From contig JAGPCY010000044.1 of the NCBI GenBank assembly GCA_018057825.1, positions 11,853-70,945 of the forward strand: a stretch of DNA of 59,093 nt, written 5' to 3'. Shown here piece by piece: positions 24,337 to 35,996 of this stretch (the first letter of the stretch is position 1; each line of letters starts with the position of its first letter). The notes below the pieces were generated by a model. That model was given only the letters and a program-made list of their open reading frames with translations. It did not search any database and had not been told where the DNA came from. Position numbers and translations under genes: made by a program. This DNA comes from Kofleriaceae bacterium. GTDB lineage: Bacteria; Myxococcota_A; Polyangia; Haliangiales; Haliangiaceae.

Positions 24337-25509
24337 TCACCCGGCCAGCCCGGCCCGGCGCGCGCGGGTCCGCCAGTAGCGCCGCACGTACCACGGGCGA
24401 TCGTCGGTGGTGGCGGCAGCGCGCGGCGTGAACTGCGCCAGCAGCGCGTGGTGCGCGGCGAACGCGTCGGCCGGCGCCGGCGGGGCGGCGAGCCAACTCG
24501 CCTCGAGGGGCGCGCGGGCCGCGACCCAGGCCGCGGCCAGGGCCGGAGCGCCGATCGCGCGGCGGTGAAAGCGCTCGTGGCGCCACCACAGGCTGGCGCC
24601 GTCGTCGCGATCGCGCGGCGGTGGGCCGAGGTCGATCGGGTGCTCGATCGCGATCGGCTTGAACAAGGACAGGCACGGCGCCGCGGTCGCGGTGACCCAG
24701 TGGCGGGCGCCGGTCGGGGTCAGCTCGGCGACCCACGACGCGGTGGTCTGCGACGACGCCAGCGCGCCGCCGGCGTGGACACACGGCGCGGCCAGGGCGC
24801 CGCGGTGCCACTGGTAGTGTGGACGGGGGCCACCGTGGTCGCGCAGCGCGGCGAACAGGTCGGCGGGACCGCGCGCGGCGCCGGCCGCGGCCAGGGTGCA
24901 CGCCTGCCGGGCGTCGGCCCCGGCCACCCACGACCGCAGGCGATCGCGGTGGCGGCGCAGCGCCGGCAAGGTCAGCGCGTTCGAGATCGTCGCGGCGCCG
25001 GTGACCCGAGCGGCCTGCCAGCGCCGACCGACGGTCTCGACGACGTAGGCGCCGCCAGCGTCGGCGACGAGGAAGCTCGAGTGGTAGCTGAAGCGCGGGT
25101 CCTCGTGGCCGCAGCCGCCGCCCTGGCCGTGGCGCTCGAGGAGCTCGCCGATGAGTTCGACCGCGGCGGCGGCGGTGGCGGCGCGCTCGAGGGCCAGGCG
25201 GACCAGATCCATGCCGGTCAGGCCGACCTCGGCGAGCGGTGCGTCGGTGAAGACCGCCTCGTTGCCGATCACCACGCCGGCGGCGTTGGCGCCCATCTCG
25301 GCGCCCCACATCCAGAACGGCCGCGACAGCGCGACCGCGTGGGTCGCCGGCGCCTGCGCGATCGTCAGGTGAGTGCAGCGGAGCCGCGCTCCCGGGCGAT
25401 GGGTGCGCGCCGGTTGCCAGGTCAGGCGTTGCGCCTCATTGGGATCGCGATCGGAGTTCTTGCCGAACAGGACCCGGCCGTCGACGATCGCGACCATCGT
25501 GTCGCACAT
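24337..25509 (-). CDS. C69-family (secernin-like) Ntn-hydrolase peptidase
   Basis: A 390-residue protein starting MCDTMVAIVDGRVLFGKNSDRD. After removal of the initiator Met, Cys2 would be the N-terminal nucleophile of the C69/secernin family of Ntn-hydrolases (dipeptidases). Supporting motifs are FWMWGAEMGANAAGVVIGNEAV and ISNALTL. This fixes the start at 25509. The family cleaves small peptides or amide bonds; the substrate here is unknown. It is convergent with the che operon and divergent from the amine oxidase, with only 51 bp between start codons. Confidence 0.87.
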   Translation of the reverse strand: MCDTMVAIVDGRVLFGKNSDRDPNEAQRLTWQPARTHRPGARLRCTHLTIAQAPATHAVALSRPFWMWGAEMGANAAGVVIGNEAVFTDAPLAEVGLTGMDLVRLALERAATAAAAVELIGELLERHGQGGGCGHEDPRFSYHSSFLVADAGGAYVVETVGRRWQAARVTGAATISNALTLPALRRHRDRLRSWVAGADARQACTLAAAGAARGPADLFAALRDHGGPRPHYQWHRGALAAPCVHAGGALASSQTTASWVAELTPTGARHWVTATAAPCLSLFKPIAIEHPIDLGPPPRDRDDGASLWWRHERFHRRAIGAPALAAAWVAARAPLEASWLAAPPAPADAFAAHHALLAQFTPRAAATTDDRPWYVRRYWRTRARRAGLAG

Positions 25510-25516
25510 CGTCGCG

Positions 25517-25522
25517 AGTGTA
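25517..25522 (-). promoter_or_regulatory. Putative -10 box for the C69 peptidase gene
   Basis: On the minus strand TACACT ends 7 nt before the ATG (25509); no ribosome binding site lies between. Confidence 0.45.
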
Positions 25523-25560
25523 CCTGGCGCCGCGACCGCCGGCGTGATGCAGTCGCGGTG

Positions 25561-26909
25561 ATGTTGGAGCGCTGTGACGTCGTCGTGATCGGCGCCGGCT
25601 TCGCCGGCTTGACCGCGGCCCGCGCGCTGGCCGCCGCCGGACGCACCGCGATCGTCCTCGAGGCCCGCGACCGGGTCGGCGGCCGGGTCCTGACCCGGCA
25701 GCTCGCCGACGGGCCATGGGTGGACCTCGGCGGCCAGTGGGCCGGGCCGGGCCAGGACCATCTCCTGGCGCTCCTGGCCGAGCAGGGCGCGCCGACCTTC
25801 GCGACCTGGACCCAGGGCGCCAACCTGGTGATCGTCGATGGAAAGGTCCGGCGTTACCGCGGGACGATCCCCAAGCTCGGCCTGCGCAGCCTGCTCGACG
25901 TCGGGCTGGCGCAGTGGCGGCTCGAGCGGATGGCCCGTCAGGTGCCGCTCGACGCGCCGTGGCTGGCGCCGCGAGCTGCGGCCTGGGACGCGACGACGCT
26001 GGGGGCCTGGCTCGATGAGCACCTGGCGACGCCCTTGGCCCGCACGCTCCTCACCGCTGGGCTCGAGACGGTGTTCGCGGCCTCGCCCCACGAGCTGTCG
26101 CTCTTGCACGCGCTGTTCTACATCCACAGCGGCAAGGACCTCGACACGCTGTTCGGCACCACCGACGGCGCCCAGGCGACGCGGGTCGACGGCGGCATGA
26201 TGCCGGTGGCCGAGCGCCTGGCGGTCGGGCTCGACGTGCGCCTCGAGAGCCCGGTGCGACGGATCGAACATGGCGACACGGTCGTGGTCCGCCACGAGCG
26301 CGGCGAGGTCGCGGCCGCGCGCGCGATCGTCGCGATCCCGCCGCACCTGATCGGCGCGATCGAGTTCACGCCCGGCCTGCCGCCGGCCCGCGCCGCGCTG
26401 GCCACCCGCATGCCGATGGGCGCGGTCGTGAAGTGCACCGCGATCTACCGCCGACCGTTCTGGCGCGACCGCGGCCTGTCGGGCATGTGGCTGTCGGACC
26501 GCGGGCCGCTGCACGTCGGCTTCGACAACTCGCCGCCCGACGGACGCTGGGGCGTGTTGATGGGCTTCGCCGAGGCCCACGAGGCGCGCCGCCTGGGCCG
26601 GCTGACCGAGGCCGAGCGCCGCGCCGAGGCGCTGGCCTGCTTGGCCGCGATCCACGGCGACGAGGCCCTGGCCGCGGTCACCTACGTCGATCACGTGTGG
26701 GAGCACGACCCGTGGTCGGGCGGCTGCTACGGCGCCTTCGCGCCACCCGGGGTGTGGACCACGCTGGGCCCGGCGTTGCGCGCGCCGGTCGGGCGGCTGC
26801 ATTGGGCCGGCACCGAGACCGCGACCCGGTGGGCCGGCTACATCGACGGCGCGATCGAGTCCGGGCGGCGGGCCGCCGCCGAGGTGGTCGGCGCGGTAGC
26901 ATCGCCGGG

Positions 26910-26913
<4 letters not shown>
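25561..26913 (+). CDS. FAD-dependent amine oxidase
   Basis: A 450-residue flavoprotein of the monoamine oxidase/FAD-dependent amine oxidoreductase family. The N-terminal Rossmann motif is VVVIGAGFAGLTAARAL with the acidic end VLEARDRVGGR, then DLGGQWAGPGQDHLLAL. The C-terminal FAD signature is LHWAGTETATRWAGYIDGAIESG. Such enzymes oxidise amines with release of hydrogen peroxide; the substrate is not predictable. No signal peptide is visible. The stop overlaps the start of the cyclophilin gene (ATGA). Confidence 0.88.
26897..26902 (+). promoter_or_regulatory. Putative internal -10 box
   Basis: TAGCAT lies inside the 3' end of the amine oxidase gene and ends 7 nt before the ATG at 26910. Confidence 0.35.
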
Positions 26914-28071
<1,158 letters not shown>

Positions 28072-28085
<14 letters not shown>

Positions 28086-28596: not shown

Positions 28597-29652
28597 TCAC
28601 CCGGCGGCGGCGGCGGTGCTGGCCGCGACCGCGACCGCGAAGCCGACCCGGGCGCCTCCGCCCGGGCGGGCCTCGGCGAAGGCCCGGCCGTCGTGGGCGG
28701 CGGCGATGCGCGCGATCAGCGACAGCCCCAGGCCGAGACCGCCACCAGCCGACGGCACGAAGGCGCGGAACGGATCGGCGGCGCGCTCGGCCGGCAGGCC
28801 GGGGCCGGCGTCGTCGACCTCGATCACGACCTCGTCGCCGCGGCGGGCGATGCGGACCGCGCGCACGCCGCCGCCGTGGCGAGTGGCGTTGTCGAGCAGG
28901 TTGGCGATGGCGCGGCGGATGAGCGTCGGATCGACAGCCGCGGTGGTGTCGCCGTCGGCGGTGATGGCCTCGGCCTCGACCCCGCTGGCCAGGGCGACGT
29001 CGGCGACCAGCGCGCCCAGCTCCTCGGGCGCGCGGTCGAGGCGCGCGAAGTCGAGGCGCGCCGACGCCAAGAGCCGGCCGACCAGGTCGTCGAGGGCGAG
29101 CAGCTCGCGCTCGGCGGCGGCCAGGGCCGACCAGTCGTCGCGCTCGCGCGCGGTCTCGATGAGGACCCGCAGGTGACCCAGCGGCGTGCGTAGCTCGTGG
29201 GACACCGCGGCCAGGAGCGCGCGCTGATCGCGGAGCTGCTGCTCGATGCGCGCCGCCATGTCGTTGAGCGCGGCGGCGAGCGCGGCCAGCTCGCCGTGGC
29301 GGTGGCCGACCTCGACCCGGGTGTCGAGCTTGCCGGCGCCGATCGCGCGCGCGGCGGCGATCGCCACGACCAGCGGCCGGGTCAGGCGCCAGGCCATGGC
29401 CCCGGCCACGACCCACAGCGCGAACAGGATGAGCCCGAGCTGCCACCAGTGACCGCCGCGGGCACCGACCCAGGCCCCGGCGGTGAGCGCCACGCCGAAG
29501 CCGAGGAAGATCCGCAGCCGCAGCCGCGCCTCGAGCCACCACGGCCCGCGCCGATGGTGGCGGTGGTGCCCGCGATGATGGGCGTGATGATGGGCCTGCC
29601 AGCGCGCGCGCTGTTCGGCCATCGCCGCGCGCCAGCGCTGCCGCGACCTCAT
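28597..29652 (-). CDS. Sensor histidine kinase with His-rich N-terminus
   Basis: A 351-residue membrane kinase. Residues 21-33 read HHHAHHRGHHRHH, a likely metal-binding stretch that precedes TM1 (about 46-64) and should face the cytoplasm. Only about five residues separate TM1 from TM2 (70-89), so there is hardly a periplasmic sensor. HAMP follows, then HisKA with H152 (AAVSHELRTPLGH) and HATPase_c with N box (NLLDNATRHGGG) and DDAGPGLPAE. Its start overlaps the response regulator stop (ATGA on the minus strand). Together with the CpxP-like gene it forms a Cpx-type three-gene operon. Confidence 0.9.
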   Translation of the reverse strand: MRSRQRWRAAMAEQRARWQAHHHAHHRGHHRHHRRGPWWLEARLRLRIFLGFGVALTAGAWVGARGGHWWQLGLILFALWVVAGAMAWRLTRPLVVAIAAARAIGAGKLDTRVEVGHRHGELAALAAALNDMAARIEQQLRDQRALLAAVSHELRTPLGHLRVLIETARERDDWSALAAAERELLALDDLVGRLLASARLDFARLDRAPEELGALVADVALASGVEAEAITADGDTTAAVDPTLIRRAIANLLDNATRHGGGVRAVRIARRGDEVVIEVDDAGPGLPAERAADPFRAFVPSAGGGLGLGLSLIARIAAAHDGRAFAEARPGGGARVGFAVAVAASTAAAAG

Positions 29653-30335
29653 GGCGCCTCGTCGGCGCTGCGGGCCAGGGTGTAGCCGACGCCGCGCACG
29701 GTCTTCACGCGCGCCGCGGCGGCATCGCCGAGCTTCTTGCGCAGGCGCGAGACGTGGACGTCGACCGTGCGATCGCCGACCGCGACGTCGCCGCGGCCGG
29801 CCAGCTCGAGGAGGACGGCGCGCGGCACGACCCGACCGGCGCGGCGGACCAGCGCGATCAAGAGGTCGAGCTCGAGGGCGGTCAGCTCGAGGGGCGCGCC
29901 GTCGACCCAGGCCTCGCGGGCGGCGACGTCGATCGCGATCCCGGCCGCGGTCAGGCGCTCGGCGAGGGCGTCGGGGGTGGCGCGGCGGACCACCGCGCGC
30001 AGCCGGGCCAACAGCTCGCGCGGCGAGAACGGCTTGGCGACGTAGTCGTCGGCGCCCAGCTCGAGGCCGACGACGCGATCGGACTCGTCGCCGCGCGCGG
30101 TCAACATGATCACCGGCAGGCGCGGGGCCTGGGTCCGGAGCTGGCGCAGGACCGCCAGGCCGTCGAGGCCCGGCATCATCACGTCGAGCAAGACCGCGTC
30201 CCAGCCGCCGCCGGCGAGCTGCGCCAGCCCGGCCTGGCCGCCTGGCGCGTGGGTGAGCGCGACGCCCTGCGGGCCGAGGTAGCCGACCAAGAGCTCGGCC
30301 AGCCGCTGGTCGTCGTCGATCAGGAGGACCCGCAC
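29649..30335 (-). CDS. OmpR-type response regulator
   Basis: A 228-residue regulator: receiver domain with DDD pocket, phospho-acceptor D51 (AVLLDVMMPGLDG), T in MLTARG and K in VAKPFS, then a winged helix (ELTALELDLLIALVRRAGRVV; RTVDVHVSRLRKKLG; VRGVGYTLA). A GTG start at 30335 is chosen because GAGGA lies seven bases upstream and translation then begins at the receiver beta-1. It is the middle gene of the operon and probably controls its own operon and envelope or metal stress genes. Confidence 0.9.
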   Translation of the reverse strand: MRVLLIDDDQRLAELLVGYLGPQGVALTHAPGGQAGLAQLAGGGWDAVLLDVMMPGLDGLAVLRQLRTQAPRLPVIMLTARGDESDRVVGLELGADDYVAKPFSPRELLARLRAVVRRATPDALAERLTAAGIAIDVAAREAWVDGAPLELTALELDLLIALVRRAGRVVPRAVLLELAGRGDVAVGDRTVDVHVSRLRKKLGDAAAARVKTVRGVGYTLARSADEAP

Positions 30336-30354
30336 CGGTTCATCCTCGCACGGC

Positions 30355-30852
30355 TCACCCGCGGTACGGCCCGGCCGCGGGACGGGGCGCACCGAGCAGC
30401 TCGGCGACCACCGCGCGCTGCTTGGGGTCGAGGAGCCCGTGCAGCTTGCGCACGCTGTCGGCCAGCGCGGCCCGGACGTCAGCGACGACCGCGTCGAGGC
30501 TGGCCTCGAGGCCGGCGGTGGCCGAGGCGTCGAGGTGCTCGCTGCGCAAGGCCTCGCCGAGGGCCGGACGCAGGGCCGCCAGGTCGCCGCGCGCGGTGCG
30601 CAGCCGCCCCTCGAGGGCATCGAGCTCGGCGACCAGGGCCCGCTCCTGGGCCGGGGTGGCGTCGAGGCGCTCGAAGAACCGGCCGAGGAGCCAGCGGCGA
30701 CGACCGCGGCCGAAGCCGCCGTGACCGTGGCGGTGATGACCGCAACCGTGGCGATGGTGATGCCAGCCGTGGTGCCAGGCGTGATGCCGACGGTGGCGGC
30801 GGGCCAGGAGATACGCGCCGAGCAGCCCGGCGCCGAGAGCGAAGACCAACAT
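30355..30852 (-). CDS. CpxP/Spy-like periplasmic protein with His-rich segment
   Basis: A 165-residue protein. The ATG at 30852 has AAGGAG upstream and is followed by a hydrophobic helix (LVFALGAGLLGAYLLA) acting as anchor or signal. Residues 20-44 hold 13 His (RRHHAWHHGWHHHRHGCGHH), a strong candidate metal-binding loop. The rest is helical and resembles the CpxP/Spy/CnrX family of heavy-metal or misfolding sensors (LLDPKQRAVVAELLG in place of the LTxxQ motif). The regulator and kinase genes follow on the same strand. Likely job: bind metal ions or restrain the kinase. The family call is moderate. Confidence 0.75.
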   Translation of the reverse strand: MLVFALGAGLLGAYLLARRHRRHHAWHHGWHHHRHGCGHHRHGHGGFGRGRRRWLLGRFFERLDATPAQERALVAELDALEGRLRTARGDLAALRPALGEALRSEHLDASATAGLEASLDAVVADVRAALADSVRKLHGLLDPKQRAVVAELLGAPRPAAGPYRG

Positions 30853-30936
30853 GTGTGCTCCTTTCACCGTCCATGCTGGTGGTCGGGTGTTGCGCGCGCG
30901 CCCAGGCGTTCGTGAAGAAACCTTGCGCGCGCAGCT

Positions 30937-30957
30937 CCCCGCCCCCAACCGGCGGGG
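30937..30957. promoter_or_regulatory. Dyad between cpxP-like and sigma factor genes
   Basis: CCCCGCC and GGCGGGG form a 7-bp dyad with a 7-nt centre, just upstream of the sigma factor -10-like box. It could be an operator in the shared divergent promoter region (30853-30986). Confidence 0.3.
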
Positions 30958-30970
30958 TGAGCGGCAGTGG

Positions 30971-30976
30971 TAGGAT
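30971..30976 (+). promoter_or_regulatory. Putative -10 box for the sigma factor gene
   Basis: TAGGAT ends 10 nt before a GTG at 30987. It overlaps the alternative ATG at 30975, so if used as promoter that ATG cannot be in the transcript. Confidence 0.35.
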
Positions 30977-30986
30977 GCTTGCCAGC

Positions 30987-31577
30987 GTGGACGACGACGC
31001 CCAATTGCTCGCCGCCTGGCGAACCGGCGACGCCCTCGCCGGCAAGGCGCTGTTCGCGCGCTACTTCCAGCCGCTGTACCGGTTCTTCGCCAGCAAGACC
31101 GACGACCCCGACGAGCTGGTCCAGCGGACCTTCCTGGCGATCGTGCGGGCCCGCGATCAGTTCGCGGGGCGCTCGTCGTTCCGCACCTATCTCTACACGG
31201 TGGGGCGCCACGAGCTGTACCACCACCTGCGCGGGCTGCAGCGCGCCCGCGCCTTCGACCCGGAGCTGTCCTCGATCGCCGATCTGGTCACCAGCGCCGG
31301 GTCGCGGATGGCCCGCGGCCAGGAACACGAGCGGTTGCGCGCGGCGCTGCGGACCTTGCCCGTCGAGCAGCAGACCCTGCTCGAGCTGCACTACTGGGAC
31401 GGCCTCGACGCCGCGGCCCTGGCCGAGATCTTCGAGACCAATCCGGCGGCGATCCGCAACCGGCTGCACCGGGCTCGCGGCAACCTGCGCGAGGCGCTGG
31501 CGGGGATCTCCGGGGTCGACGCGGCCACGGTGGCCACGGTCGAGGCGGTCGACGCGTTGGCCCGCGGCGCCGGCTGA
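30987..31577 (+). CDS. ECF-type RNA polymerase sigma factor
   Basis: A 196-residue group 4 sigma factor. Region 2 reads FARYFQPLYRFFASKTDDPDELVQRTFL and SSFRTYLYTVGRHELYHHLR; region 4 reads LPVEQQTLLELHYWDGLDAAALAEIF with helix-turn-helix NPAAIRNRLHRARGNLREAL. The start is uncertain: ATG 30975 adds four residues but overlaps the -10-like box. No anti-sigma factor gene follows. It is divergent from the His-rich CpxP-like/two-component operon, so both may respond to one envelope or metal signal. Confidence 0.87.
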   Translation: MDDDAQLLAAWRTGDALAGKALFARYFQPLYRFFASKTDDPDELVQRTFLAIVRARDQFAGRSSFRTYLYTVGRHELYHHLRGLQRARAFDPELSSIADLVTSAGSRMARGQEHERLRAALRTLPVEQQTLLELHYWDGLDAAALAEIFETNPAAIRNRLHRARGNLREALAGISGVDAATVATVEAVDALARGAG

Positions 31578-31715
31578 GCGACCGAGCGATCTCGCGCGGT
31601 TGACGATCGCGGGCGAAGGGCGAGCCCGGCCCGACGAAAATCGACCGGACCCCGCGACACGTTTCGGGCCTGCCGTTCTCTACCAGGTCGCTCACCCTCC
31701 TGGGAGGTCCGCTCG

Positions 31716-32735
31716 ATGAAGTCCCTGGCCACGGTTCTCTTGCCCCTCGCGCTCCTGGCCGCCGCCCCGCGCGCCCACGCGGCCGGCAAGTGTTCACAGT
31801 TCGACTGCGGCACCAACTCACCGGTGATCGATGGGCTCGGCTTCCACGAGCTGAGCGTGGTCGGTGACCTCAACGCCCAGGGCCTGCGCCTCGGCGATCT
31901 CGTCAACCCGGCGAACGGTAGTCGTCACCGCGTGCGCGTCCTCGAGGACCAGCTCGTCGGCCAGAGCAAGCTCTTCCCCTACTGGACCGTGGTCACCGGC
32001 GAACAGCTCGTCGGCCGCTATATCGAGGTCTTCCGCGGCCGGTCGGCGTACCGGCTGAAGATCCTCCACGTCACCCGCGCGGTCGACTACCTGGTGGCCC
32101 CAGGGCAGGGCGATCGCTTCGAGACGTACCAGTTCGCGTGGTCGCCCGAGACGGACTTCCACGTCGTCGAGCCGCTGTGCCCGGAGTACGAGCCCGGTCA
32201 ACCCGGCGTGACCCAGGCGATGCTCGAGTCGGTGGTGTTCACCGGCAACCGCTACGACGCGCCGACCAAGGACTTGCTCCCGGCCGCGGCCTCCGATCCG
32301 TACTGGGTCAACCTCGGCTGCTACAACACGACGCTCTACAAGCTGAAGACCACGCGCCACAACGATCAAGCGGCCTCACCCGCGTTCACCGCGCCGCGCG
32401 AACTGCAGCAGGCGATGGTGCGAATGTGGACCGGCGACGTCTGCGGCGACGGCGACGCTCACACCGAACAGGGCACGCCGCTGTACTGGCAGCACCCGGC
32501 TGGGGTCGGCTCGGCGTGGTACGGGTCGCCCGACGAGACCACCGAGGGGATGTGGGGCGCCGACGGCGCGCTGTGCGTGAGCGACTACCGCTTGGGCTGG
32601 CCTTACTATCTGGCCGAGGTCGACTGCGATCCGTCGCCGTCGGTGATCGCGCGACCACCGCTGTGCCCGATGACGTTCGGCGGCATGTGGACGCTGCCGG
32701 GCGCCCAGGTGTACAGCTCGTTCCCGACCCCGTAG
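31716..32735 (+). CDS. Secreted ADYC-domain-like protein
   Basis: A 339-residue exported protein. The ATG has GGGAGG eight bases upstream; a cleavable signal peptide ends at AHA-A. Residues 215-330 resemble the ADYC domain of Myxococcota (MVRMWTGDVCGDGDAHTEQGTPL, normally containing ADYCGDG), but Tyr of the name-giving motif is replaced. Paired Cys (CSQFDC, CPEY, CYNT, DVC, CPM) suggest disulphides. The first half (LNAQGLRLG... and YRLKILHV) also fits that family. Function unknown. The residue change makes the assignment a moderate one. Confidence 0.72.
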   Translation: MKSLATVLLPLALLAAAPRAHAAGKCSQFDCGTNSPVIDGLGFHELSVVGDLNAQGLRLGDLVNPANGSRHRVRVLEDQLVGQSKLFPYWTVVTGEQLVGRYIEVFRGRSAYRLKILHVTRAVDYLVAPGQGDRFETYQFAWSPETDFHVVEPLCPEYEPGQPGVTQAMLESVVFTGNRYDAPTKDLLPAAASDPYWVNLGCYNTTLYKLKTTRHNDQAASPAFTAPRELQQAMVRMWTGDVCGDGDAHTEQGTPLYWQHPAGVGSAWYGSPDETTEGMWGADGALCVSDYRLGWPYYLAEVDCDPSPSVIARPPLCPMTFGGMWTLPGAQVYSSFPTP

Positions 32736-32773: not shown

Positions 32774-35248
32774 TCAGGGGCGCGCGGTGAGCGCGGCCAG
32801 CGCGGCCGCGCGACGCCGGTAGGCCACCGGCGCCATGCTCGGCCCGACCGCCGCCAGGAGCGCAGCTGCGCCGCGCGGATCGGCCGGCGGCGTCGGCGCG
32901 ACCACGAGCAGCGCCAGCTCGACGTCGAGGGCGCGCTTGCGCTGCCACCACGGCGCGTCGGCCGCGACGGCGAGCTGGGCGCGCAGCTCGGTGAGCTGGG
33001 CGGTCGCCGCGGCCGCGTCGCCGCGAGCCCACGCGGCGAAGGCCGCCGCCCAGGTCAGCTCGTGGCCCGGCGCGCCGGTCGACGCGGCGGCCGCGACCCG
33101 GGCCGCGAGCCGCGCCACGACCTCGCGCTGGCCGGCGCGGGCGGCCAGCCACAGCGGCTCGTGGGCGACCTCGGCGAGCAGGCCGCCGCGGCTCGGGTGG
33201 TCGGCGGCGAGCTGTTCGACCACCGCGGTCAGCTCCGCGAGCGCGCGCGCGTCGTCGCGATCGGCCAGGGCGACCGCGGCGCGGGCCGACAGCGCCTGCG
33301 GGTGGCGCGACCCGAGCAGCCGGTCGAGGGTCGCGCTCAGCTCGCGGCCGACCGCGCGACGATGGTCGTCGTCGTCGAGGACCAACAGCAGGTTCTGGCT
33401 GGCCGCGGTCAGCTCGATCGCGCCCGGGCCACCGAGCTCGCGGGCCAGCACCCGCGCCTGCTCGAAGCGGGCCCGGGCCAGGGCGCGGTCGCCGCGCCCG
33501 AGCGCGATGCTGCCGAGGTTGTTCTCGAGGAGCGCGCGCGCGAATTGTCCGCGCGGCCCGAGGCTGTCGTCGAGCCCGCGCACGATCTCGAGCCCGGCGA
33601 TCGCCTGGGTCGCGTCGGTGAGGCCGGCGGTGGCGGAGGCCCAGGCCCGACGAGCCCAGGCCTCGATCGCCAGCGCGAGCTCGCCGCCGGCCAGGGCCGC
33701 GCGCTGGGCGATCGCGAAGTCGTCGACGCCGAGGCCATCGTCGTCGAGGGTCAAGGCCAGGCGACCGCGCGCCAGCCGAGCGCGCGCGATCAGCGGGCGA
33801 TATCCAGTCGCCTCGGCGCGCGCCACCGCCGCGTCGAGCGCAGGGCCGAGCTCGCCGGTGCGCCCGGCGTCGCGCTCGACGGCGAGCTGGACCAAGGCGG
33901 CGTCGATCGCGGCGACCTCGGCGGCCTGGGCCGTGGGCGGCGGCGCGAGGCCGGCGGCCAGCGCGGCGTCGTCGTCGCAGGCGGCGGGATCGGGCAGCTC
34001 GGCGGTGGCGCGGACCAGGCCGGGGAGCTCACCGATGGTGGTCGCGGCAATCAGGGCAGCGACCGCGGCCAGCGCCGCGCGCGGGCGGGCCAGGCACGCG
34101 AGCCGCCGGTCGTAGGCAGCATCGGATAGCTCGCGGCGCTCGCGAGCCAGGCACGACGCGCGGTGCAGCGCGACCCAGGCGTCGGCGTAGCGATCGAGGG
34201 TCGCCACCACCCGCGGCCCGGCCTCGGCGACGTACGATCCGCCCAGCCCGCGCAGGTGCCGCGCGAGCTCGGCGCGCCGCGCCGGGCCCCAGCTCGCGGC
34301 GATCGACGACGCCGCGCCGGAGCACGGCTCGACCCGCTCGCTCGACCGCGCCTGGCCCAACCAGAACGCGGCGCCGGCGGCGGCCACCGCGAGCGCGGCG
34401 CCGGCGACCAAGCCGCGGCGTCGCCACCGCGTCATGGGATCGAGCGCCAGCGCCGCGGCCAGGGCCTCCATCGACGGGAAGCGCTCCTCGGGTCGGGCCG
34501 CGGTCCCGCGCGCGAGGAGCGGCGCCAGCCAGCGCGGCACGCCCCCGCGCGCGACCAACGCCTCGCGCAGCGACACGCACAGCGCGTATTGATCGACCGC
34601 CTCGGTCAGCGCCGCGCCGGCCTCCTGCTCGGGCGCCATGTAGCCGCGGGTGCCAGCGACGCGGCCGTCGCCACCGCCGGCCTCATCGGCCAGGCCGAAG
34701 TCGAGGACGCGGACCCGGCCGTCGTCGCCGAGGATCGCGTTGTCGGGCTTGAAGTCGCGATGAATGAGCCCGGCGCGGTGGGCGGCGGCCAGACCGTCGG
34801 CGGCCTGGCGATAGTCGCGGATGAGCTGGGCCGGGGTGCGGGCCCGGCCGGCCGCGCGCAAGGTCTCGCCCTTGACCAGCTCCATCACCAGGAACACCCG
34901 CTCGTCGTGATCGAGCACGTCGTAGATCGGCACGACGTTGGGATGCGATAGCCGGCCCAGGGCGCGGCCCTCGTCGCGGGCCCGCGCGCGCGCGACCGCG
35001 TCGCCCGACGACGCCAGCTTGAGCGCGACCGCGCGACCGATCGTCGGATCCCACGCCGACCACACCACGCCCATGCCGCCGGCGCCGATGCGCTCGATCA
35101 CCCGGTAGCGCCCGATCTTGACCGCCTCGCTGGCGCCGAACAGCGCGGCCTCGGCCCGAGCCTGCGCGACGCGCAGATCGAGGGTCGGGATCTGCGGCTC
35201 GGCGCTGGCGATGGCCTCGGCCGAGCTGGGCGGCGGCGGCTCGCTCAC
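32774..35248 (-). CDS. Ser/Thr protein kinase with TPR-like sensor region
   Basis: An 824-residue Hanks-type kinase of the common Myxococcota layout. The kinase domain (about 48-275) has ERIGAGGMGVVWSA, K77 in VALKLA, HRDFKPDN (H163, D165) and DFGLAD (D183), then GTRGYMAPEQ. The lobe after the activation loop is somewhat short (LCVSLREALVARGG), consistent with a compact C-lobe. One TM lies at about 279-298, followed by about 520 residues of TPR-like helices rich in Ala and Leu (LLENNLGSIALGRGDRALAR). A GTG start at 35248 follows TATGCT at 6 nt. Divergent from the SRAP gene. Confidence 0.88.
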   Translation of the reverse strand: MSEPPPPSSAEAIASAEPQIPTLDLRVAQARAEAALFGASEAVKIGRYRVIERIGAGGMGVVWSAWDPTIGRAVALKLASSGDAVARARARDEGRALGRLSHPNVVPIYDVLDHDERVFLVMELVKGETLRAAGRARTPAQLIRDYRQAADGLAAAHRAGLIHRDFKPDNAILGDDGRVRVLDFGLADEAGGGDGRVAGTRGYMAPEQEAGAALTEAVDQYALCVSLREALVARGGVPRWLAPLLARGTAARPEERFPSMEALAAALALDPMTRWRRRGLVAGAALAVAAAGAAFWLGQARSSERVEPCSGAASSIAASWGPARRAELARHLRGLGGSYVAEAGPRVVATLDRYADAWVALHRASCLARERRELSDAAYDRRLACLARPRAALAAVAALIAATTIGELPGLVRATAELPDPAACDDDAALAAGLAPPPTAQAAEVAAIDAALVQLAVERDAGRTGELGPALDAAVARAEATGYRPLIARARLARGRLALTLDDDGLGVDDFAIAQRAALAGGELALAIEAWARRAWASATAGLTDATQAIAGLEIVRGLDDSLGPRGQFARALLENNLGSIALGRGDRALARARFEQARVLARELGGPGAIELTAASQNLLLVLDDDDHRRAVGRELSATLDRLLGSRHPQALSARAAVALADRDDARALAELTAVVEQLAADHPSRGGLLAEVAHEPLWLAARAGQREVVARLAARVAAAASTGAPGHELTWAAAFAAWARGDAAAATAQLTELRAQLAVAADAPWWQRKRALDVELALLVVAPTPPADPRGAAALLAAVGPSMAPVAYRRRAAALAALTARP

Positions 35249-35254
35249 GCCCCG

Positions 35255-35260
35255 AGCATA
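35255..35260 (-). promoter_or_regulatory. Putative -10 box for the kinase gene
   Basis: On the minus strand TATGCT ends 6 nt before the GTG at 35248. It faces a similar box for the divergent gene 27 bp away. Confidence 0.45.
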
Positions 35261-35287
35261 TCGCGGCGACGGCGACCGCCGGCCTGC

Positions 35288-35293
35288 TACCCT
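35288..35293 (+). promoter_or_regulatory. Putative -10 box for the SRAP gene
   Basis: CTGCTACCCT: TACCCT ends 7 nt before the ATG at 35301, without a ribosome binding site. Confidence 0.45.
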
Positions 35294-35300
35294 GCCGGCG

Positions 35301-35996
35301 ATGTGCGGCCGCTTCCCGTCGACCAAGCCGGCCGCGCTGATCGGCGCGATCGAGGATCGCGCGGGCGCGGCCGCGACCGCGGTGCTGGCGACCGCGCCGC
35401 GCCTGCCCGCCGGGCTGACCTCGTGGTGGGCGCCGCGCGCCAACGTCGCGCCGACCCAGCCGGCGCGGACGATCGCTCTGGTCGACGGCGCCCTGACCGC
35501 GACGCTGGCCCGCTGGGGCCTGACGCCGCCGCCGCGCGGCCCGGCGCGCGGCCCGATCATCAACGCGCGCAGCGAGACCGCGGGCGGGTCGCCGCTCTTC
35601 CGCGGGCCGCTTGCCCGCGCCCGGGTGTTGGTCCTGGCCGACGGCTTCTACGAATGGCGCGGCAAGGCGGCGCAGCGGATCGCCCCCGGCGACGACGGCG
35701 CCGTGACCTTCGCCGGCCTGCTCCGACCGTGGCGCCACGGTGAGCACGTCGTGCCGGAGGTCGCGATCCTGACCGCAGCGGCCGGGCCCTTGGTCGCGCC
35801 GATCCACGACCGCCAGCCGGTGGTGATCGCCGCCGATGCCCGCGCGCGCTGGCTCGATCCCGACCTGCCGCTCGACGCCGTGGCCGACCTCCTCGCTCCC
35901 GATCCGCTGGTCGACTGGACGGTCGCCGCGGCGCCGGCCTGGATCAACGACGCCCGCACCGAGGCCGGGGCGGCGCCGCTCACGCTCGGGCTGTAG
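35301..35996 (+). CDS. SRAP-family abasic-site DNA crosslinking protein (YedK/HMCES-like)
   Basis: A 231-residue protein beginning MCGRF. In this family Cys2, exposed after Met removal, forms a thiazolidine crosslink with abasic sites in single-stranded DNA and protects them. NARSET, LADGFYEWRG (the conserved Glu) and PIHDRQPVVI (the conserved His) are all present; the usual HxRMP is HDRQP. The required N-terminal Cys fixes the start at 35301. It likely acts in DNA damage tolerance, although no LexA-like box was identified upstream. Confidence 0.93.
   Translation: MCGRFPSTKPAALIGAIEDRAGAAATAVLATAPRLPAGLTSWWAPRANVAPTQPARTIALVDGALTATLARWGLTPPPRGPARGPIINARSETAGGSPLFRGPLARARVLVLADGFYEWRGKAAQRIAPGDDGAVTFAGLLRPWRHGEHVVPEVAILTAAAGPLVAPIHDRQPVVIAADARARWLDPDLPLDAVADLLAPDPLVDWTVAAAPAWINDARTEAGAAPLTLGL

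Follow-up and report, generated by a model that had tools for sequence, protein, structure and literature searches.

Three minus-strand genes, encoding a CpxP-like protein, an OmpR/PhoB-type response regulator and a sensor kinase, were analysed in a stretch of 59,093 nucleotides from a Kofleriaceae bacterium (contig JAGPCY010000044.1; this whole stretch is called the window). The three genes were read as a self-contained, probably autoregulated two-component cassette whose CpxP-like accessory would face the cytoplasm, and a probability of about 0.55 was assigned to this reading. The CpxP-like gene, the regulator gene and the kinase gene form one conserved cassette, which is widespread in myxobacteria. 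The divergent gene for an extracytoplasmic function (ECF) sigma factor is a neighbour and is separate from the cassette. An earlier note on this DNA had placed all four genes in a single module; the gene set with its divergent ECF gene was confirmed, and domains were found in the regulator, the kinase and the ECF sigma factor, but only the three-gene part of the module held as one unit in relatives, the ECF gene having no linkage to it elsewhere. No description of this cassette was found in the literature searched, the scope of which excluded subscription papers.

Conservation of the cassette and family of the CpxP-like protein

In the window, the CpxP-like gene comes first and is followed, after a gap of 19 bp, by the regulator gene and then by the kinase gene, the ATG of which overlaps the regulator stop codon. 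The latter two show both the domain set and the gene pairing of an OmpR/PhoB regulator with a HAMP-HisKA kinase. CpxP-like matches were present in 17 of 30 genomes of the window's family, its own included. Of the family loci, 16 lie outside the window; the regulator gene followed the CpxP-like gene in 15 of them and the kinase gene in 14, the genes missing at L033 and L034 being accounted for by contigs that end there. The regulator was approximately 70-85% identical to that of the window wherever it was covered in one piece. Two candidates were discarded: a second CpxP-like match in genome G028 was spurious, and the frame at L018/L035 was read from its sequence as a His-containing, desaturase-like protein.

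A search for related loci with the window CpxP-like protein as a single query returned nothing. With an alignment of 16 members (A1), 76 loci were retrieved from records titled Kofleriaceae, Polyangium, Sorangium, Archangium, Myxococcus xanthus (L132), Anaeromyxobacter and others; the two sets overlap, as 12 of these record loci coincide with family loci. In a phylum sample of 377 genomes, 96 were matched by this alignment at E 1e-8, a count that possibly includes weak Metal_resist paralogues. A downstream kinase was found in 61 of the 67 record loci that had 1.5 kb or more of room for it. No conserved divergent target gene of the cassette was found in the loci scanned; in the window's family, 8 of 10 scanned frames that were taken as the divergent neighbour encode a ComM-type Mg_chelatase, and elsewhere this neighbour varied. 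The cassette at locus L156 is Myxococcus-like; the genome it comes from, recorded as Comamonas sp. KCTC 72670, is perhaps mislabelled.

The CpxP-like protein consists of an N-terminal hydrophobic helix, a His/Arg/Gly-rich linker, a helical domain and a C-terminal GPYR. Taken alone, the window protein gives weak support to the label CpxP-like; its family gives firm support, and the predicted fold backs it. As a single sequence, the window protein matched PF13801 with an E value of 1.7e-4, under the curated cut-off, and had no match in NCBIfam. Within the family alignment A2 (72 CpxP-like rows including the window's; L142, L146, L167, L185 and L188 were excluded from the 76), PF13801 was matched by 68 members and PF07813 by 62, at E 0.01 or better. 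The motifs TPxQE (TPAQE in the window) and LDxxQR (LDPKQR) align with the two LTxxQ-like motifs of Spy, which was itself reached by a profile search of the family (E 8.4e-4). His138 is invariant across A1. The structure model, with a predicted local distance difference test (pLDDT) score of 82, is a helical hairpin fold, for which Foldseek ranked Spy and CnrX at the top of the PDB (probability 1.00; E values of 0.03 and up, none under 0.001) and CpxP at rank 25. VIA-align Z scores of 8-10 for CpxP relatives were intermixed with those of unrelated helical bundles and do not separate the two. By profile, hairpin fold and motifs, the window protein and its family belong to the CpxP/Spy/CnrX fold superfamily.

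Predicted membrane orientation of the accessory and the kinase

In the CpxP-like proteins, the initial Met leads into a hydrophobic helix that lacks Lys and Arg and is followed by a basic stretch: Lys and Arg are absent from residues 1-5 of all 77 proteins, and residues 17-36 carry a net positive charge in every one. By the positive-inside rule, under which an uncharged helix start with a basic stretch after it corresponds to an N-out/C-in orientation, this pattern predicts an N-out/C-in anchor and a cytoplasmic CpxP-like domain. The export signal or C-out anchor expected of periplasmic CpxP, Spy and ZraP accessories was predicted from sequence, with the start codons chosen, in none of the 77. 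In a control of 30 PF13801 loci from a class sample, a hydrophobic start was found in 27. Three subfamily members (147-151 bits) lacked Lys and Arg before the helix, whereas 22 of 24 paralogues (61 bits or less) did have them there; L205 and L222, with no match to the family profile, and L207, with no hydrophobic start, lay outside this paralogue control. The identical start-picking rule, applied to the 77 CpxP-like proteins, gave 77 without Lys or Arg. The chosen ATG has no alternative ATG, GTG or TTG upstream within its open frame in 40 of 76 loci, and that of the window is preceded by a good Shine-Dalgarno sequence (GAAAGGAG), comparable ones being present in same-family loci.

In the window kinase, the first and second transmembrane helices (TM1, residues 46-64, and TM2, residues 72-90, by hydropathy) are separated by a loop of 7 residues, which agrees with the earlier observation that this kinase almost lacks a periplasmic domain. 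Its N-terminus is strongly basic, and was for this reason taken to be cytoplasmic. With the CpxP-like protein predicted to be C-in, both His-rich segments would lie at the inner membrane surface. Whereas the earlier note had suggested that metal is bound on the two sides of the membrane, the prediction from charge places the His segment of the CpxP-like protein in the cytoplasm, on the same side as that of the kinase.

These features bear on a canonical module of the Cpx/Zra type, in which a periplasm-facing CpxP-like protein would bind metal or misfolded protein and restrain the kinase from outside. The lead of Spy and CnrX among the PDB matches, the PF13801 and Spy profile matches and the periplasmic loop of 70 residues or more in 47 of 57 measured kinases are all consistent with such a module, which was nevertheless judged unlikely, given a charge pattern shared by all 77 proteins and unlike that of most paralogues, and a window kinase loop that offers little binding surface.

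The related kinases were compared in alignment A4 (61 rows including the window's; L114 was excluded from the 61 found). The loop between the helices, measurable in 57, was 70-109 residues long in the 47 long-loop kinases and shorter than 20 residues in the other 10, of which 8 are from the window's family. In the A4 consensus, the long-loop kinases have two recurrent Cys in the periplasmic loop, possibly a disulphide or a metal site. A LiaF-like_C domain was detected before TM1 in 5 of the 61 aligned kinases (L122, L124, L126, L128 and L143; E 0.001 or better) and was not matched in the window kinase. The best PDB match for a model of one of these domains was 4QRK (E 0.044, probability 0.99), which PMC11237479 gives as an example of a Toastrack domain, argued there to be intracellular. 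The position of this domain before TM1 in these relatives favours a kinase input at the inner face of the membrane.

A small protein with a basic hydrophobic N-terminus (MRRRLLIVLLALGTVGGYASGF...), often containing His, is encoded between the CpxP-like gene and the regulator gene at many loci (e.g. L132:6516-6734). It was found by filter in 50 of 76 loci and in none of the 12 of the window's family, although some frame is present there in L137; the filter demands a basic N-terminus and missed at least L125. Five of the six loci at which no kinase was detected nearby (L135, L136, L140, L142, L146 and L166, four of them Polyangium-titled) keep the small gene by the same filter. Among the 57 loci with a measured kinase loop, 38 had the gene and a long loop, 8, all from the window's family, had neither, 2 had the gene with a short loop (L134 and L152), and 9, L125 among them, had a long loop without the gene by filter. 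This distribution only hints that the small exported gene and the kinase loop were lost together.

The window CpxP-like protein has 13 His in residues 20-44 (13 of 25) and the kinase has nine in residues 21-33 (9 of 13), before TM1, so that the counts of the earlier note were correct. Per 27 residues, these 13 and 9 are the two highest values among the 315 stop-to-stop open reading frames of the window with 100 residues or more; the next is 7, and the mean His content of the window frames is 2.8%. That exactly these two frames rank highest argues that their His richness is not due to chance. Runs of His, Arg and Gly are frequent as low-complexity sequence in GC-rich genomes. In same-family relatives the linkers are His-rich, often with Cys, and their His content varies greatly. 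The His-rich segments were accordingly rejected as a conserved defining trait of the cassette, since the counts vary and are uncorrelated between the two proteins.

That the cassette is a metal sensor proper, with Ni, Cu, Zn or Co bound by both His-rich segments on one side of the membrane, is compatible with the cytoplasm-facing accessory preferred here, and was regarded as possible but rather doubtful. The density of His, the Cys-containing linkers of relatives and the greater number of His before TM1 in short-loop kinases (on average 8.7, against 4.2 in long-loop kinases; 10 and 47 loci, uncorrected for relatedness) speak for it, and the lack of conservation in His number speaks against it, as do the flanking genes: no metal-transport family was found among 20 flanking proteins, which were drawn from 12 relative loci and include 8 without any family at E 1e-6, and none of the 6 window frames beside the cassette is a metal-handling or efflux gene, as would be expected of a metal-resistance operon.

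The upstream element and the divergent ECF gene

A candidate element lies 35 bp upstream of the CpxP-like ATG. It comprises two CTTCAC-like half sites ten bases apart, then TTCACA or GMAACA 18, sometimes 17, bases further on; in the window's family, the first half site is GCAA-like at most loci. Its core was present in 17 of 17 family loci (regular expression, four variants). In 76 of 77 cases, L136 being the exception, the upstream region scored higher than every one of 760 random stretches taken from these loci, and 21 of 22 held-out regions, which had not been used for the matrix, were above all controls. The 8.9-Mb genome of the window contains one site by two patterns, the stricter of which allows up to 3 mismatches. 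Five of eight other genomes likewise have one site each, inside the cassette locus, and the three-repeat pattern missed the remaining three: L132 (M. xanthus) and L118 have a last spacer shortened by one base, and L140 has a different first half site. The single genomic copy of the element and its location suggest autoregulation. The simplest reading of the repeat spacing and the location is that the element would be the regulator's own operator, and that the cassette is probably autoregulated.

The intergenic region shared by the CpxP-like gene and the ECF gene is 122 bp long, or 134 bp if the ECF gene starts at a GTG. The GTG at 30987 is the more probable start, perhaps leaderless, because the ATG at 30975 overlaps a TAGGAT box. 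A TA-box was seen by eye near the start codon in many ECF homologues, which suggests that the ECF gene is probably served by its own promoter. As reported earlier, the ECF gene has no anti-sigma gene that could be found next to it; the next plus-strand gene encodes an ADYC-domain protein.

No ECF homologue adjoined the cassette at the 16 same-family loci or at the 76 record loci, 72 of which have at least 700 bp upstream; the only exception among the 76 was a 30% ECF match 3.4 kb downstream in L176. An ADYC check covered 30 ECF loci fetched of 47 matches, and the window's own was left out of the counts. Among ECF homologues of 50% identity or more, 13 of 17 had an ADYC match downstream on the same strand, compared to none of 12 weaker ones. 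In the genome of the window, 4 of 5 ECF matches have an ADYC match within 0.5 kb after them. Genome G025, of the window's genus, has a cassette without an ECF gene and a 74% identical ECF on another contig. The ECF gene was therefore rejected as part of the cassette, being unlinked at other loci and paired with ADYC genes in its relatives. The ECF-ADYC pair is recurrent, with several copies per genome (window 30971-32735; G000 C43, C28 and C12), and no mention of the ADYC domain was found in the literature searched.

Control of the CnrYXH kind, in which a CpxP/CnrX-like protein would govern the divergent ECF sigma factor upon exposure to metal, was considered very improbable. According to PMC4598750, CnrX of Cupriavidus metallidurans is thought to control CnrH via CnrY. 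The CnrX fold is similar and an ECF gene is nearby across a shared intergenic region; in contrast to CnrYXH, no anti-sigma gene was found here, the ECF linkage is missing at the family and record loci, the ECF relatives stand beside ADYC genes, with cassette and ECF on separate contigs in G025, and the conserved partner is the two-component pair.

The coordinates of the features are given in Table 1. Further neighbours in the window, at 24448-28082 and 32777-35993, encode a flavin amine oxidase, a cyclophilin, a Ser/Thr protein kinase and a SRAP peptidase.

Table 1. Positions of the cassette genes, the divergent genes and the associated DNA elements in the window.
Feature	Position	Strand	Remarks
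CpxP-like gene	30355..30852	-	CDS, 165 aa; first of three minus-strand genes
OmpR/PhoB-type response regulator	29649..30335	-	Receiver and Trans_reg_C; GTG start 30335-30333
HAMP-HisKA-HATPase_c sensor kinase	28597..29652	-	351 aa
ECF sigma factor	30987..31577	+	Sigma70_r2 and r4_2; open frame listed from ATG 30975
TAGGAT, -10-like box before ECF gene	30971..30976	+	By-eye likeness in position to boxes before many ECF homologues
ADYC-domain protein, signal-peptide-like N-terminus	31716..32735	+	PF20032, E 2.7e-23
Candidate regulator operator/promoter element GCAAGGTTTCTTCAC-N18-GCAACA	30888..30926	-	Conserved upstream pattern

Proposed mechanism and relation to known systems

Because the kinase has no periplasmic sensor domain, it would, in the mechanism proposed for the cassette, monitor the cytoplasmic membrane, at the inner face or in the bilayer, or else a ligand in the cytoplasm. 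Once phosphorylated by it, the regulator would bind the repeat element in front of the CpxP-like gene and so raise expression of the cassette. The CpxP-like protein, held by its predicted N-out/C-in anchor, would sit on the cytoplasmic side beside the kinase N-terminus and the HAMP region and would act as a titratable accessory, most simply as a feedback inhibitor of the kinase. The ligand pulling it away might be a metal on the His/Cys-rich juxtamembrane linker, a disturbed membrane or a misfolded protein.

Several observations weigh against this reading. The topology depends on charge rules and on the choice of start codon, the start picker prefers starts near the helix, and in 16 of the 77 loci, including the window, an upstream ATG or GTG would place Lys or Arg before the helix, with a Shine-Dalgarno-like match at the alternative start in 8 of these 16. 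In the window this alternative is a GTG six codons upstream, without a Shine-Dalgarno-like match, and the frame stays open to a TTG at 30948. The membrane-helix part of the model is of low confidence (pLDDT 64-68), and Spy, CpxP, ZraP and CnrX, which share the fold, are periplasmic. In the 47 long-loop kinases sensing is probably periplasmic, which makes a CpxP-like domain on the opposite side harder to explain, and six roomy loci have a CpxP-like gene with no kinase detected nearby. Across loci, the kinase N-terminus and the CpxP-like linker show no correlation in His content (rho 0.13, p 0.35). The element, the spacing of which varies by one base, might instead be some other type of promoter, and weaker regulator sites elsewhere would escape the pattern search.

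The cassette was rated as a variant of a Cpx/Zra-like system, its accessory being predicted to be flipped. As in CpxP-CpxR-CpxA and ZraP-ZraS-ZraR, a small CpxP-fold gene stands beside a two-component pair, with possible autoregulation and feedback. Unlike in those systems, the accessory is predicted to be N-out/C-in and unexported, its gene is first in the gene string, a His-rich linker comes after its helix, and the kinase lacks a periplasmic sensor domain. LiaR is a regulator of another type than OmpR/PhoB. A likeness to LiaFSR/Toastrack systems lies in the cytoplasmic-side LiaF-like domain of the five related kinases and in the minimal external part of the window kinase (PMC11237479); in contrast, the LiaF-like domain is here fused to the kinase N-terminus, is not present in the window kinase, and the regulator is of the OmpR/PhoB type. 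PspB, ZipA and YhcB are N-out/C-in single-helix proteins with basic residues after the helix. Their anchor is similar to that of the CpxP-like protein, whereas their cytoplasmic parts are unrelated.

A broader reading, held tentatively and at slightly under even odds, is that of a myxobacteria-wide family in which a CpxP/Spy-fold partner of the kinase would face the cytoplasm. The kinase in the window's family would have lost its periplasmic sensor and some genomes would have gained a Toastrack domain, stress being read inside and the regulator serving essentially its own promoter. CpxP-family proteins are regarded as periplasmic; should this subfamily face the cytoplasm instead, names placing it in the periplasm would be mistaken for many myxobacterial genomes, and a CpxP fold would need no external sensor domain to control a kinase. 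Since Myxococcus xanthus has the cassette (L132), the circuit can be tested in this species by way of the conserved candidate operator.

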